A DNA stretch of 36,548 nucleotides from Candidatus Aenigmatarchaeota archaeon (GTDB lineage Archaea; Aenigmatarchaeota; Aenigmatarchaeia; QMZP01; QMZT01), in the NCBI GenBank assembly GCA_003663325.1, contig QMZT01000009.1, forward strand, positions 1 to 36,548. Direction: 5' to 3'. Both the position numbers and the translations under genes were made by a program. The notes under the pieces are model-generated. The model did no database searches, had not been told where the DNA came from, and saw nothing but the letters and a program-made list of their open reading frames with translations. Positions 10,821 through 26,018 of this stretch are shown here, piece after piece. Position 1 is the stretch's first letter, and each line of letters opens with the position of its first letter.

Positions 10821-10958
10821 GCCTCGGTAGCTCAGCTGGTTAGAGCGCCACACTGGTAATGTGGAGGTCGCGGGTTCGAAGCAAAAAGGGGCACAGAAGC
10901 TTGCTTCCTCGTCCCTTCTTGTATCTTTCCCATGCAAGTGGAAATCCCGCCCGGGGCT
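10821..10958 (+). tRNA. tRNA-Thr(GGT) interrupted by a T-loop intron
   Basis: Acceptor GCCTCGG (10821-10827) pairs with CCGGGGC (10951-10957); discriminator is T10958. D-stem is GCTC/GAGC and anticodon stem CCACA/TGTGG (10848-10852, 10860-10864), with anticodon GGT at 10855-10857 in an uninterrupted loop. T-stem GCGGG (10870-10874) is followed by TTCGAA, then 64 foreign bases, then T and CCCGC (10946-10950). Without the insert the molecule is a normal tRNA-Thr; with it the T-loop would be destroyed, so excision is needed for function. Confidence 0.95.
10881..10944 (+). repeat. T-loop intron of tRNA-Thr, copy 1 of the shared 64-nt element
   Basis: The intron sits between tRNA positions 59 and 60. 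A relaxed bulge-helix can form: TTCG (10875-10878) with TGGA (10939-10942), bulges AA|G and AA|T. Two internal hairpins are visible: outer stem AAGGGGC/GTCCCTT (10886-10892 with 10911-10917) around a GAAGC-TT-GCTTC core, and CTTGTAT/ATGCAAG (10918-10924 with 10932-10938). The sequence is almost the same as in tRNA-Lys and tRNA-Met; the A-to-G change in the outer stem preserves pairing as G-U. Confidence 0.9.
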
Positions 10959-10973
10959 TTCATTTTATGTAAA

Positions 10974-11070
10974 GCGCAAGAGGGCTTCGGAAGCTTTGCT
11001 TTCTCGCCCTCTTACCGCACTATCTCTCATGAAAGCTTGGAAACCACGCTAGGGCTTTCATTTTATGTAA
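10974..11070 (+). repeat. Degenerate tandem copy of the intron plus tRNA-Thr 3' end
   Basis: After the tRNA comes a second unit that aligns with intron, tRNA 3' end and flank. It starts AGCGCAAGAGGGC (compare AGCAAAAAGGGGC), forms an eight-pair stem AAGAGGGC/GCCCTCTT (10978-10985 with 11006-11013) around GGAAGCTTTGCTTTC, and ends TTGGAAACCACGCTAGGGCT (compare the intron end and acceptor). The 19-base sequence GGGCTTTCATTTTATGTAA occurs exactly at 10954-10972 and 11052-11070, so the period is 98. It cannot form a tRNA because the 5' half is absent. Confidence 0.85.
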
Positions 11071-17063: not shown

Positions 17064-19709
17064 ATGAGGGATAAAAGCGTCATAATAATATTTATTGCCG
17101 CAGTTTTTGTGTTTCTAAATGTTAGAATCGCTGCGTCCGATCTTGTTTGCACCACGAGAGAGGGAAGCTGTGCTGCTGGTGAGGTTGTTATATTTAAGCT
17201 CTCAGACAATGATCTTACCAATGATGCTGGCAATGCCATACCCGGGCCGCATGCCGAGCTCCCAACCCAAACTAATTACAAGTGGTTTGTATGTTGTAAA
17301 GACACCAGTGGCGTTTCTATTGGAAATGAATGCATACCTGCTGGGGGTAGGGAAAGGGTTGTTTTGTTTAATCTCACAAGCCCCACAAACGCACACGCTT
17401 GGCTTCCTAATAGCGGTAGTGGTGTTGGCTACCCTGTATGTATTTCATACGCTTCTGCCACAGCCAATTGTTACGCTACATCTGGTAGCTGTAACCCCGG
17501 TTATGAATGTATAGCTAAGCTAACAGCTGAGACAAATGCCCACATATCCAACTGTACCAGCGATTTTCCATATAGCATTTGTTGTTCATTAACACCAATT
17601 GCTGCACTACCCGTAACGCCGCTACAGATCGAATGGGTAAAGCCAAGCATAACTCCAATTGATGTTAAAGAAGGTGAAAACGTGGAGTTTGAGGTTTATG
17701 TAGTTAATAAATCAGCCCCCATAGCCAGAGTTCAGCTTCTAAGAGAAGAAGATGGTGAGGTAAAAATAATAAAGGATATGGAATTTGACAAGATGGAGGA
17801 GCATGGAGAGGAGAAGAGATGGCATTACACAGCCAGTATGAGCTATGATGATTTTAAGTGGGGTGATAATATAATGCTTGCAAATGTAACAGATAAAAAT
17901 GGTAACACACTGCGAACAGATAGCGAGAGGGTAATTATAAAGAAGGCAATAGAAATAAGGTATGAGAAGCCAACACCAGAGGATGGCAGCGTGCTCTATT
18001 CTGATAAGTTCATAATAAATGTCAGCGTTAAAAACTACACAGCAGAGATTGAAACCGTGAAATTTACAGTTACAGCAGAGATTAATAGTGTACCGTTTAA
18101 TTATGAGCCAACTATTAGTGGTGATAGGTACGATTTTGTAAAAGATGGTAGATTTTTTTACCATATAGAGCTTACATCACTCTCGCTTGGCACATATACC
18201 TTCAAAGCAAGCGCAACAGATAAGGATGGGTATAGTGATGAAACAGAGAAAAGAAGCGTAACCATATCAGGTATTGGCGGACTTTCTGTGGGAATAGATA
18301 TAGTACCGGTTGTTCAAGAAGATGACAGAAAATACACAAATGTGACAGAGGTTGATCTCAAGCTAACATATCAAGATGTTGATAATAAAAGATGTTATTT
18401 GAGGAATGATAGTATGGCATGGGAAGATATTCCCTGTGCTGATAGCTATTCAGGATGGGAATTGATTAATAAAGATGGTACGAGGACAGTTTGGTTTAAC
18501 GAAACAAATGGCACGCATGAAGGTATTGCAAGCGATTCCATAATTTTAGATAGAACGCATCCTTGGTCCTCGCTTTCTGCAGGCAGGGAATTGCATGATA
18601 TCTCTACAGATGGAACAAAAATAACCTTTTCTTTGTCTGGGGATGATCCACCACTTCCCGATGGCTCATACGGGGTGGGCATAAAATGCTACAATATCTC
18701 ATATAACTTTACCGATGGCACAACATGGTATGGATGGAGAGTATGGAATGATTGCGTAACAACCAACACAGAATTTGATTTAGAAGAATTTGCAAAAAAT
18801 ACCCTTGGTCCAGGGAAAACGGCAAATGATTTAGATGGCTATATATTTTTCTTCAAATCCGAGGCCATAGATAAATTGCTGAACAAGGAGAAAAAGAAAG
18901 GGTATGATGTGAAGAAAATAATATATGCTCCGAAATGCATAAAAACCTACGTAAAGACGGGATCTGACACTATTATTTCTAAGGAAGGCGGTATTGCAAG
19001 TGCAAGGTCCAAAGCAACGATAGTGGTAGAAAGTAGGCCAGGATGCACTCTTACTAATATAGAGATTAATTATACCGCACACCCTATACATGAGCCAAAA
19101 TCCAATTGGGAATGGGAACAGAGTTCATGTAGCGGGGCACCATGCTCAGTTGATGTTGGACCTTTTAATGAGGACATGGAGATTAAATACTACGTTAAGG
19201 CTAAAATTTCTTCAGGAGGTAAGGAGAAAAGTCCTCCCACAGCTCCAAATGATTTATGGTATTTCTATATGCTGTATCGTCCAATAGCAGAGTTTGAAGA
19301 GCATAATGTTGTTTTAAAGCTGGGGAGAAGGTATAATATCAGAATAAAGGTAAGGAATATACAGCCTGTTAGATCAGATATTAATGTTCAATTATCCTTG
19401 AGTAAGGGCAAAGGTCGTATTCAACAATATGTATATTTCCCTGATTCAACGAATTTTATAAGAACCGTAACATTAAATCCGCAAGAGGAAAAGGTAATAA
19501 ATGCAACATTCTATGCGAACAAAGAGGGTGTATACAGTATAGGATTGACTGCTTGGAGTCTAAGCAATCCTAATTTACAGGATAATGATATAATGAATAT
19601 AAAGGTTGTTATGTATAAGGAGCTGAGCGAGATAAACGTATATTCTCTCATGGTATTGTTCATCGCCTCATTAATAATCTTTGCCTTTATACACTCACGC
19701 TTATTTTAA
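17064..19709 (+). CDS. Large membrane-anchored surface protein with Ig-like domains
   Basis: An 881-residue protein. The N-terminal signal peptide (VIIIFIAAVFVFLNVRIAAS) precedes a Cys-rich region (about 30-175). Several Ig/fibronectin-like beta domains follow (e.g. IDVKEGENVEFEVYVVNK near 200). A repeat around residues 410-500 has the bacterial surface pattern WEL-KDGTRTVWF ... DSIILD. A late domain resembles a CARDB/NEW3 fold, and the protein ends with one transmembrane helix (VYSLMVLFIASLIIFAFIH) and a very short cytoplasmic tail. Many N-x-S/T sites would allow archaeal N-glycosylation. It is divergent from the ABC operon across a 109-base promoter region. Adhesion or cell-envelope function is inferred. 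Confidence 0.85.
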   Translation: MRDKSVIIIFIAAVFVFLNVRIAASDLVCTTREGSCAAGEVVIFKLSDNDLTNDAGNAIPGPHAELPTQTNYKWFVCCKDTSGVSIGNECIPAGGRERVVLFNLTSPTNAHAWLPNSGSGVGYPVCISYASATANCYATSGSCNPGYECIAKLTAETNAHISNCTSDFPYSICCSLTPIAALPVTPLQIEWVKPSITPIDVKEGENVEFEVYVVNKSAPIARVQLLREEDGEVKIIKDMEFDKMEEHGEEKRWHYTASMSYDDFKWGDNIMLANVTDKNGNTLRTDSERVIIKKAIEIRYEKPTPEDGSVLYSDKFIINVSVKNYTAEIETVKFTVTAEINSVPFNYEPTISGDRYDFVKDGRFFYHIELTSLSLGTYTFKASATDKDGYSDETEKRSVTISGIGGLSVGIDIVPVVQEDDRKYTNVTEVDLKLTYQDVDNKRCYLRNDSMAWEDIPCADSYSGWELINKDGTRTVWFNETNGTHEGIASDSIILDRTHPWSSLSAGRELHDISTDGTKITFSLSGDDPPLPDGSYGVGIKCYNISYNFTDGTTWYGWRVWNDCVTTNTEFDLEEFAKNTLGPGKTANDLDGYIFFFKSEAIDKLLNKEKKKGYDVKKIIYAPKCIKTYVKTGSDTIISKEGGIASARSKATIVVESRPGCTLTNIEINYTAHPIHEPKSNWEWEQSSCSGAPCSVDVGPFNEDMEIKYYVKAKISSGGKEKSPPTAPNDLWYFYMLYRPIAEFEEHNVVLKLGRRYNIRIKVRNIQPVRSDINVQLSLSKGKGRIQQYVYFPDSTNFIRTVTLNPQEEKVINATFYANKEGVYSIGLTAWSLSNPNLQDNDIMNIKVVMYKELSEINVYSLMVLFIASLIIFAFIHSRLF

Positions 19710-19710
19710 A

Positions 19711-19978
19711 AATGGCCCAACAGGATACCACTTTGCACATTTCTTTCCCTGAAGGCTTTCTTGAGGAAGTGCCAGCTCCCGTAAAGAAAGGCTTCATTGC
19801 ACATTTCTTTCCCTGAAGGCTTTCTTTGAGGAAGCAGGATTTCATATTTTTGGATTGAACCTTTTTAGGCAAGCGTTAGCTGCCGTAAAAAGGTTCATCG
19901 TAAAGAAAGGCTTCATTGCACATTTCTTTCCCGAGGGTTTCTTTGAGGAAGCGTTAGCTCCCGTAAAGAAAGGCTCAA
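19711..19978 (-). repeat. Array of degenerate T-loop-intron units downstream of tRNA-Lys
   Basis: Three related units are marked by TTGCACAT (plus-strand spelling) at 19733, 19797 and 19916. The first two are 64 bases apart, the same length as the intron in the neighbouring tRNA; the second contains a 55-base insertion that is itself another unit. In RNA sense the units share the core ACGGGAGCTAACGCTTCCTC or variants with the tRNA introns, but have a different outer stem (TTTCTTT/AAAGAAA). The distal end (19711-19740) is a degraded copy of tRNA-Lys 3' end plus intron end (19977-20008). No protein is encoded. Confidence 0.85.
19857..19896 (-). repeat. Nested hairpin unit with a fully exchanged stem
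   Basis: In RNA sense the ten-base arm AACCTTTTTA pairs perfectly with TAAAAAGGTT around CGGCAGCTAACGCTTGCC. Compared with the neighbouring units, CGGgAG...CTtCC has become CGGcAG...CTtgCC, a compensated base-pair change, while the apical AGCTAACGCT stays the same. It is preceded by AGGATTTCA, which resembles the tRNA exon/intron junction GGGATTTCCA, so it looks like a unit inserted into another unit. Confidence 0.75.
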
Positions 19979-19992
19979 TGGGCCCGGCGGGA

Positions 19993-20057
19993 TTTCCACT
20001 TTGCATGGGAAAGATGCAAGAAGGGACGAGGAAGCAAGCTCCCGTGTCCCTTTTTGC
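19993..20057 (-). repeat. T-loop intron of tRNA-Lys, copy 2 of the shared element (65 nt)
   Basis: Inserted between tRNA positions 59 and 60, after TTCGAA and before T60. It differs from the tRNA-Met copy by only a few bases, including one extra A in GCAAAGTGGAAA. Hairpins: AAGGGAC/GTCCCTT around CGGGAGCTTGCTTCC, and CTTGCAT/ATGCAAG with loop CTTTCCC. Splice helix TTCG/TGGA with bulges AA|G and AA|T as in tRNA-Thr. Confidence 0.9.
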
Positions 20058-20079: not shown

Positions 20080-20113
20080 GTCTCCAGATCATTGCCTTTG
20101 GCATCACAACACC
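20080..20113 (-). other. Anticodon-loop intron of tRNA-Lys (34 nt, position 37/38)
   Basis: Bulge-helix-bulge: CTCT (positions 32-35) pairs with GGAG (one G-U pair), 5' bulge TA|G, 3' bulge AC|A. Internally TGCC-AAA-GGCA forms a small hairpin. Splicing gives loop CTCTTAA. Not related to the T-loop element. Confidence 0.85.
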
Positions 20114-20222
20114 TAAGAGCCTGGTGCTCTAACCAGACTGAGCTACGGGCCCATTTAAAATAGTTTTTTGTTTGAAATTTTAAATATTGCTTTGTAAACC
20201 AAGCAGGATTTATTAGAAAAAG

Positions 20223-20678
20223 CTATTGTTTTACAATAAGCTTTGCCCTCTCCAAATCATATTTCCAAGTTTTTGGCAACTTCTTTGCCCTTTGATAGTA
20301 TTTAACAAGCCTCTTTATTTTTGATTCAACAAGCTCTAATGCATGCTTGGCATGCTTGTCTTTTTTCATTTTTTCCAGATGATTTGCTATATTAACAGCC
20401 TTTTTTAGCAAGTTAAGCAAATCCTCTGGTATTGAGGGATAATACCCATGCTCCTTCATAATATCGGATATTGTTTTGTTTGTTATCCCTTTAACAGAGG
20501 GTATTCCATACTGGTCCCTTAAAATAATACCTATTTTTGCTGAGCTGTGCCCTTCTTTAGCATACTTTATAACCAATTCCTCAACTTCTTTAGGTGTATA
20601 CCCAACCCAAGCGGTAGTTCTAAGCAAAGGTTTGTGTGAGCCTGATTTCCCTCTCCTTCTCGCATACATCCTTGCCAT
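20223..20678 (-). CDS. rps15: Ribosomal protein S15 (uS15), archaeal type
   Basis: A 151-residue protein with the archaeal/eukaryotic N-terminal extension ([20 protein letters not shown], then [20 protein letters not shown]). The S15 core contains [20 protein letters not shown] and later [19 protein letters not shown]. It binds 16S rRNA in the 30S platform. The start is immediately preceded by an inverted repeat. A shared symmetric TATA box (20713-20720) serves this gene and the divergent DUF59 gene. Confidence 0.96.
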
Positions 20679-21205: not shown

Positions 21206-21225
21206 AGAAGATGCCGGTGACGGGA

Positions 21226-21289
21226 TTTCCACTTGCATGGGAAAGATGCAAGAAGGGACGAGGAGGCAAGCTCCTGTGTCCCTTTTTGC
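21226..21289 (-). repeat. T-loop intron of tRNA-Met, copy 3 of the shared element (64 nt)
   Basis: Located between positions 59 and 60. Nearly identical to the tRNA-Lys copy; the differences fall in the inner hairpin (AGGAG-CTTGC-CTCCT here), where pairing is kept or improved. The outer stem AAGGGAC/GTCCCTT and second hairpin CTTGCAT/ATGCAAG are unchanged. Confidence 0.9.
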
Positions 21290-21311
21290 TTCGAACCCGT
21301 GACCTCCACGT

Positions 21312-21352
21312 TTCTTAGATATCATCTTTTCATCATCGCTCATATCGTATCA
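21312..21352 (-). other. Anticodon-loop intron of tRNA-Met (41 nt)
   Basis: Placed at 37/38 because this leaves loop CTCATAA. The expected central helix (CTCA with TAAG) has one mismatch, so the splice motif is relaxed. A perfect nine-base inverted repeat, CGCTCATAT/ATATGAGCG with spacer GATACG, pairs the anticodon region with the intron and would compete with the normal anticodon stem. Confidence 0.75.
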
Positions 21353-21456
21353 TATGAGCGTGGCGCTCTAACCAACTGAGCTACACCGGCATCGTTTTAA
21401 TATTTATTCGCTTTATTCTTATAAAATTAATATTGATTTTCAGACAAAAATTAAAT

Positions 21457-24833: not shown

Positions 24834-26018
24834 ATGAAGATATTGTTTAGTAAAAAGAGTGGTTTGTGGGTAGAGGATAAGGAAGCAATAGAAAAATTAA
24901 GGAACGATTACTTCGGGGAAATAAAGAACGATAAACTTTTTTTGTTCCCAGAAGAAGCGCTATATCTCGTAGCATTTAGAAACTTTAAAGTATATGATAC
25001 CAATGGCATGGAGATCAATTTCAATAGCTTAGCAGCTTTTTACTCAAAAAAAGATAAAAACCTTTTCGTAAAGTTCAATGCATACAGGGATTGGCGTGAT
25101 AGGGGATTGGTTATAAGGAGATTTAATCCTGCTGTTAAGGGAAAACATGAGAAGAAAGTCACAGCTGTTTACCCCTCTGGCAATATACAATTAGAACCTA
25201 TAAAGTGGGAGGCTGTCTGGTACCCATACGCTCTTTTTTCCATTATAGAAGATAAGCAAAGCGTGGAGCTTTATGAAAGGTATTGGTTTGGACAATATGG
25301 GGTTTATAAGCAAAAAAGAGGAACCATGCTTAAACTCAACTTCCTCGAGACCATTTTCCTTGCTAAACACTTTGGCTTAAAGGTAAAAAATAGCGAAACG
25401 AATAAGATTACTAGCTGGAGAAGTATACTAAACTCTGTAGTAAAGAAGAGGGAGTATGCAAAGCAATTGTATGAGGTGTACGAGGATTGGAGGTTACGGG
25501 GTTATATAGTAAAAACAGGCTTTAAGTTTGGCTCTCATTTCAGGATATATTTTCCAGGTGCATCTCCCGTTAAAAAAGACAAATGGACGCATTCAAAGCA
25601 CGTGCTACATGTTTTTCCAAAGCAAGAAAGACTTCTCGTATCGGAGTGGGCAAGAGCGGTAAGGGTTGCACACGGTGTTAAAAAAACATTTATACTCGGT
25701 ATACCAGAAATGAAAAAGGAGGATTATATTTACTATGAACCACACTTCCTTGCATATAGAAGGAAGAAGGAGAGAAATATATGGGTAAGGGAAACACCAA
25801 AGGACAAGCCACGCTACCTTTTGGTTGCCCTTAATGAAGACGAGCATATAGGTGGTATAGAGCTTGCATCCCTTCTAAAGATTGCAAAGGATATGGGACT
25901 TGTGCTGGTACTTTCTATAACTGACAGGGAGACTGCGGTAACCTACTATATGCTAAAAAAGATAATATTGCCAGATTCAAAATTTGAATACTACGAGATA
26001 GAGTGGATGAAGCCATAA
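24834..26018 (+). CDS. endA: tRNA-splicing endonuclease EndA, three-unit (epsilon-2-like) form
   Basis: A 394-residue protein. An EndA N-domain-like unit (about 1-95, GLWVEDKEAIEKLRNDYF, ending YRDWRDRGLVI) is followed by a complete catalytic unit (about 125-295). That unit has YEDWRLRGYIVKTGFKFG and the triad Tyr239 (HFRIY), His253 (WTHSK) and Lys283/284 (GVKK). A third unit (about 298-394, HIGGIELASLLKIAKDMG) resembles a catalytic domain but lacks the triad. Homotetramer-type EndA is about 180 and homodimer-type about 300 residues; about 390 with this order matches the ARMAN epsilon-2 enzyme, known for broad substrate range. It is the obvious candidate for splicing the unusual T-loop introns here. 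Confidence 0.92.
   Translation: MKILFSKKSGLWVEDKEAIEKLRNDYFGEIKNDKLFLFPEEALYLVAFRNFKVYDTNGMEINFNSLAAFYSKKDKNLFVKFNAYRDWRDRGLVIRRFNPAVKGKHEKKVTAVYPSGNIQLEPIKWEAVWYPYALFSIIEDKQSVELYERYWFGQYGVYKQKRGTMLKLNFLETIFLAKHFGLKVKNSETNKITSWRSILNSVVKKREYAKQLYEVYEDWRLRGYIVKTGFKFGSHFRIYFPGASPVKKDKWTHSKHVLHVFPKQERLLVSEWARAVRVAHGVKKTFILGIPEMKKEDYIYYEPHFLAYRRKKERNIWVRETPKDKPRYLLVALNEDEHIGGIELASLLKIAKDMGLVLVLSITDRETAVTYYMLKKIILPDSKFEYYEIEWMKP

Follow-up and report, generated by a model that had tools for sequence, protein, structure and literature searches.

The window analysed here is a stretch of 36,548 nucleotides (nt), positions 1-36,548 of contig QMZT01000009.1 from Candidatus Aenigmatarchaeota archaeon GCA_003663325.1 (genome G000 below). 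On its minus strand lies a transfer RNA gene, tRNA-Lys(CTT), that carries one intron in the anticodon loop and another in the T-loop. Behind its 3' exon, after the dinucleotide TT, comes an array of short hairpin units, A, B and C, with a further unit nested in B (Table 1). This array is probably a pile of displaced T-loop introns, which belong to a mobile family of bulge-helix-bulge (BHB) introns of about 60-80 nt, largely confined to one Aenigmatarchaeota order.

A first-pass annotation of the window had described three related units behind tRNA-Lys, one of them carrying a nested unit, and had placed them at 19711-19978. The units are indeed present on the minus strand, and the location needs a small correction, the array proper running from 19978 to 19713. 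Their spacing was measured as 62 nt from A to B and 61 nt from B to C (nested unit excluded), not the 64 nt first given, and the Lys T-loop intron, to whose length the period had been equated, is 65 nt long. The resemblance to tRNA introns held up: over a stretch of 55 nt, unit A shows 100% identity to a T-loop intron at another site of the genome, and the hairpins of the array units fold as had been claimed. The distal end had been read as a degraded tRNA-Lys 3' end together with an intron end, and comparison of this segment with the live tRNA-Lys copy gave a score exceeding all 1000 shuffles. The composite of unit B and its nested unit recurs behind the C5 tRNA of the same genome (blast, 89% identity over about 184 nt). 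Two tRNA-Lys orthologues from the same family were compared, and neither carries the array: that of G007 has no tail, and the one behind the G004 gene is of another intron type.

To place the array among its relatives, a family covariance model was built from 22 copies; its E-values are rough. All genomes searched are draft metagenome assemblies, G000 itself comprising 735 kb in 28 contigs at 82% completeness. The family was found in G000 at 13 places by blast and in 20 copies by the covariance model, and all 20 lie within tRNA introns (of the T-loop or the anticodon loop), within ribosomal RNA (rRNA) genes for 16S or 23S, or in tails directly behind tRNA 3' ends. It occurs in 20 of the 41 genomes of the order and in 4 of 104 sampled genomes of the phylum outside it. 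A pattern searched for in 84,980 species genomes matched 10 stretches, every one from Candidatus Aenigmatarchaeota, and two patterns run against viral contigs gave no family match. Near-identical introns occur in unrelated tRNA genes and positions, as in the transposed tRNA introns of Thermoproteales type. Copies in relatives have inverted ends (AAGCCTTTCTTT/AAAGAAAGGCTT) and lie in D-loops, T-loops, 16S and 23S genes, one 5S gene and some protein-gene ends. Homologues with no link to tRNA or intron sequence, the case named beforehand as speaking against the first reading, were encountered only marginally: the copies in 16S, 23S and 5S rRNA genes also read as introns, and a few lie at gene ends. 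One T-loop intron, that of the C26 tRNA, contains a complete type II core and, behind it, one half of a type I core, a stacking of the kind seen in units A-B-C.

For several of the rRNA insertions, inspection showed that relatives have the exact site empty, with zero-gap joins at several sites; the flanks of the 23S insertion of G000 are contiguous in G006 and G019. Hand reading gave perfect BHB motifs at 16S (G015, G013) and 23S (G013). The motif in the 16S gene of G015 reads CGCUGG-UCAU-CA|A-AAGC...GCUU-GUGA-AG|U-CUAGCG, and that of G013 reads GCCG-UG|U-AAGCC...GGCUU-CGGU-AA|A, where rejoining yields the usual intron-free sequence. One copy in the 23S gene of G013 (L062:674-739) is antisense to the rRNA, and its ends form a full BHB, GGAUCCU-UGAC-AA|C-AAAG...CUUU-GUUA-UA|A-GGGAUCC. 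Removal of the T-loop introns restores TTCRANT, and their central helix was 4/4 paired in most of 46 cases. Junctions were fixed by the mature loop for T-loop introns and by the empty sites for rRNA genes, both of which replaced an automatic BHB scan. Exact empty sites and BHB junctions thus mark the RNA-gene copies as predicted archaeal BHB introns, and we infer that they would be spliced in vivo. The window encodes a putative tRNA-splicing endonuclease EndA of the epsilon2 type, whose alignment to 4fz2 preserves the Tyr160-Lys161 pair, and RtcB is encoded in the same genome. Relaxed BHB motifs are known substrates of epsilon2 EndA (PMC4033280, PMC12397907).

Compensatory change around a constant apex had been proposed for the array. 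It could not be assessed within the array alone, because the type I outer stems there are identical, and is strongly supported family-wide. An in-house statistic that is R-scape-like, rather than R-scape itself, was applied to two alignments, one of 22 copies made from sequence only and one of 85 distinct copies fitted to the structure by the model. The former gave 34 double-change cells versus 10.4 in shuffles, the latter 212 versus 66, with slid controls far lower. Under a tree-aware null, in which columns evolved independently along the tree, 40 cells were expected for the 85 copies (0/1000 replicates reached 212), and 7 of 16 pairs, mainly in the outer stem, were significant after Bonferroni correction. 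For the 22 copies the same null gave 7.7 expected (0/1000), with two pairs individually significant. The hairpin covariation is therefore real at family level. Since the array represents one product of a mobile intron family that extends through the whole genome and the order, the selection on structure that had been suggested is placed on the family, where it acts on splicing and/or spreading; none is visible on this array.

The tails bear on how such units may have come to lie behind tRNA genes. At tRNA-Lys, tRNA-Pro and the C5 and C10 tRNAs (identities were settled for Lys, Thr, Pro and Met only), the tail opens with nucleotide 1 of a T-loop intron, two bases past the discriminator, the joins reading TT|GAGCC or TT|GCAAAAAGG. 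The tail of the G004 tRNA-Lys (TA|AAAGCG...) consists of 48-nt units, two in tandem, that belong to an unrelated type of T-loop intron; compensatory changes distinguish their hairpins. In total, five tails start at intron nucleotide 1, four behind tRNAs of G000 and one in G004. A sixth, behind tRNA-Thr, repeats the 3' exon and trailer after a displaced intron. These counts are of individually inspected cases, and several matches that came from neighbouring tRNA genes were set aside in the comparison of downstream with upstream sequence. The family is invasive, old introns with their 3' exons end up downstream of tRNA genes, and the joins fall at intron nucleotide 1.

Table 1. Features of the window that bear on the array, the tRNA-Lys gene and related loci.
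Feature	Position	Strand	Basis or remark
tRNA-Lys(CTT), whole gene	20152-19979	-	sequence reading
tRNA-Lys 5' exon	20114..20152	-	Rfam tRNA model 25.9 bits despite introns
tRNA-Lys anticodon-loop intron, ~position 37/38	about 20080..20113	-	sequence; boundary +/- 1-2 nt
tRNA-Lys middle exon, 3' end TTCGAA	20058..20079	-	sequence
tRNA-Lys T-loop intron, position 59/60, type II, 65 nt	19993..20057	-	central helix UUCG/UGGA, 4/4 pairs
tRNA-Lys 3' exon, TCCCGCCGGGCCCA	19979..19992	-	sequence
Array unit A, type I core, from intron nucleotide 1, 2 bases past discriminator base	19917..19976	-	family model R1, 86.4 bits
Array unit B, whole, split by nested unit	19914-19798	-	sequence
Array unit B, 5' part	19897..19914	-	sequence
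Nested type IV unit, in apex of unit B	19839..19896	-	family model R1, 49.2 bits at 19834-19898
Array unit B, 3' part	19798..19838	-	sequence
Array unit C, terminating in Lys-type T-loop intron end TGCAAAGTGGTA	19726..19795	-	family model R1, 72.6 bits
Degraded tRNA-Lys 3' exon, TCCTGTTGGGCCA	19713..19725	-	0/1000 shuffles reach its score
tRNA-Thr(GGT) 5' part, up to TTCGAA	10820..10880	+	sequence
tRNA-Thr T-loop intron, type II	10881..10944	+	sequence, T-loop junction
tRNA-Thr 3' exon and 14-nt trailer	10945..10972	+	sequence
tRNA-Thr displaced older T-loop intron, type III	10974..11043	+	sequence
tRNA-Thr displaced degraded 3' exon, trailer repeated	11044..11070	+	19/19 identical across exon end and trailer
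tRNA-Met(CAT)-like gene, anticodon-loop intron and type II T-loop intron (21226-21289)	21212..21390	-	sequence; no tail seen
EndA tRNA-splicing endonuclease, epsilon2 type (predicted)	24834..26018	+	4fz2/9w2k, E 1.9e-98; PF01974, PF02778

In the preferred scheme, each unit has a hairpin, conserved at its apex and covarying in its outer stem, and ends that would supply the intron side of a BHB. Broad-specificity epsilon2 EndA, together with RtcB, would excise such units from RNA genes, so that insertions would be tolerated even where these genes are essential. New cores would land beside the 5' splice site of older ones, giving stacked cores, or would bring a copied tRNA 3' exon along; left behind the repaired tRNA, the older intron would then decay together with its 3' exon and whatever cores were stacked or nested in it. 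For the tails, RtcB would take an intron cut by EndA, with or without its 3' exon and bearing a 5'-OH, and attach it to another pre-tRNA at the 3' end; the joined RNA would then be copied into DNA by reverse transcriptase from a presumed source. Such mis-joining and copying seems the most likely route for the tails, at somewhat short of an even chance. More tentative is its general form, that excised introns move by EndA/RtcB joining to the 3' ends of pre-tRNAs or introns, followed by copying back into the chromosome, the tRNA tails being the record of a gene-less mobile element. Tandem copying from circular introns was also considered. No head-to-tail intron joins (GGAAA|GAGCC) occur between units in the loci examined; the joins read TGCA-(TT or AT)-GA(A)GCC, which speaks against this source.

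Several points weigh against these proposals. The inner helix is weak in type II introns and often weak in T-loop introns generally, as in relaxed BHB, and the automatic BHB scan with shuffled flanks, run on a partial set, gave competing registers and many weak scores and was too permissive. No reverse transcriptase was found in G000 (82% complete), nor is this enzyme associated with the element (2 of 20 element genomes versus 4 of 21 others, all incomplete metagenome-assembled genomes). The antisense copy in the G013 23S gene and the copies at protein-gene ends are not predicted by a route through RNA only. Finally, the evidence is genomic DNA, and draft metagenome assemblies can misjoin short repeats.

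An RNA step would be unnecessary for the tails if unequal crossing-over or plain tandem duplication had repeated the segment of intron, 3' exon and trailer, with decay and intron conversion acting afterwards. The C10 tRNA has a tandem duplication of this kind, 171 bp long (T-loop intron, intact 3' exon and tail) and still fresh, with 98% identity over the intron, and the tails are homologous to T-loop introns, with which they could pair. The first event, however, requires a breakpoint exactly at intron nucleotide 1 in five tails, one of them with an independent intron type; moreover, the intron types before and behind the 3' exon differ, and the unlinked Lys and C5 tails have the composite in common. 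We regard this origin as possible but rather unlikely.

Slightly less probable still is transposition at the DNA level, in which palindromes resembling miniature inverted-repeat transposable elements (MITEs) are moved in trans by a transposase (Y1/HUH or other), BHB splicing merely letting insertions in RNA genes survive. The inverted ends, the antisense copy, the nesting of units, the gene-end copies and the G024 copy that lies in frame within a gene for a P-type ATPase are what such movement would leave. Yet Y1 transposase is absent from G000 and present in 8 of 41 genomes, 4 of the 20 with the element and 4 of the 21 without; neither a target-site duplication nor a common DNA target was seen, a single antisense copy was found in RNA genes, and the exact splice-site-nucleotide starts behind tRNAs are left unexplained.

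It is very improbable that the arrays were left by a plasmid or virus that had integrated with the tRNA gene as its attachment site and had duplicated tRNA 3' ends: at Lys, Thr and Pro the repeated 3' exons do look like attL/attR, and there is a precedent at tRNA-Thr of Caldiarchaeum (PMC3293823), but the inserts, of about 100-270 bp, consist of intron units only, with no integrase or element body between the duplicated 3' ends, the two patterns run against viral contigs gave no family match, and rRNA genes carry the identical unit type. A functional small-RNA locus under selection, to which the family-level covariation might point, is just as hard to credit given the G007 orthologue without array, the interruption of unit B by a nested copy, the decayed distal 3' exon and the lack of an Rfam match. 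A pile of displaced introns from a mobile BHB family stands as our preferred explanation of the array.

An 881-amino-acid open reading frame without Pfam match (window 17064-19709) terminates beside the array, and the gene for ribosomal protein S15 (window 20223-20678) lies closely 5' of tRNA-Lys on the same strand. Because of the introns, tRNA detection was poor: ARAGORN called no tRNA gene in the window and Rfam one above cut-off, and nowhere in the array region was the gathering score of an Rfam family attained, tRNA-Lys itself scoring 25.9 against 29.

Among the relatives, a family copy lies within an apparent 5S rRNA gene (L159:26-93, G013:C35); archaeal 5S introns look unusual. All four copies L140, L156, L169 and L175 of G033 begin at or beside protein-gene stop codons, two in convergent genes, and neither EndA nor RtcB was found in that genome (74% complete), though a tRNA with a T-loop intron is present. 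The in-frame ATPase copy of G024 (L065:305-373, G024:C44) resembles Rickettsia palindromic elements. G021 (L168, L174, L172, L176) carries very long nested or stacked composites, which reach several hundred nt in tRNA T-loop introns and also occur between genes.

Rickettsia palindromic elements, repetitive extragenic palindromic (REP) sequences and MITEs are short mobile palindromes, some of which lie beside or within genes. Unlike these repeats (for REPs, see PMC3733652), the present family sits as apparently spliceable introns in RNA genes, in a genome without Y1 transposase. Transposition of introns from tRNA to tRNA is known in Thermoproteales, by a mechanism described as still unknown (PMC4090602, PMC4033280). 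Similar introns in different tRNAs are common to both cases, whereas the present family belongs to another phylum (DPANN), has a hairpin core with conserved apex, also occurs in 16S, 23S and 5S rRNA genes, and shows stacked or nested cores and tRNA tails that start at the exact intron start. The EndA of ARMAN-2, also of epsilon2 type, has a broad substrate range (PMC12397907, PMC4033280). The window enzyme is a full-length homologue that keeps the Tyr-Lys pair of the ARMAN-specific loop; it differs in accompanying a heavily intron-invaded Aenigmatarchaeota tRNA set, and its activity is predicted from sequence. The tRNA disruption model of Caldiarchaeum (Sugahara et al. 2012, PMC3293823) likewise combines intron gain with a duplicated tRNA piece nearby; that model involves a recombinase element of 1.8 kb together with a 5' fragment, here only intron units of about 60-270 bp and 3' exons. 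A search of the literature collection available did not find a description of such introns in Aenigmatarchaeota. New here are the covarying core with conserved apex common to tRNA and rRNA genes, the way its copies stack and nest, and the tails, whose joins are exact.

The spread of archaeal BHB introns has so far been inferred only from similar introns in different tRNAs. In this order, sites that are still empty occur together with single introns, with cores that are stacked or nested, with tandem duplications of fresh appearance and, behind tRNAs, with introns that have decayed along with 3' exons, and the way in which the repeats join tRNA ends is a rare clue to intron movement. The exact join between tRNA end and intron nucleotide 1 recurs in a second genome, where the intron type is unrelated, and allows specific mechanisms to be tested. 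Within reduced DPANN genomes, one small hairpin family colonises genes for tRNA and for 16S, 23S and 5S rRNA, and standard tRNA and rRNA annotation will overlook or misread many such genes.
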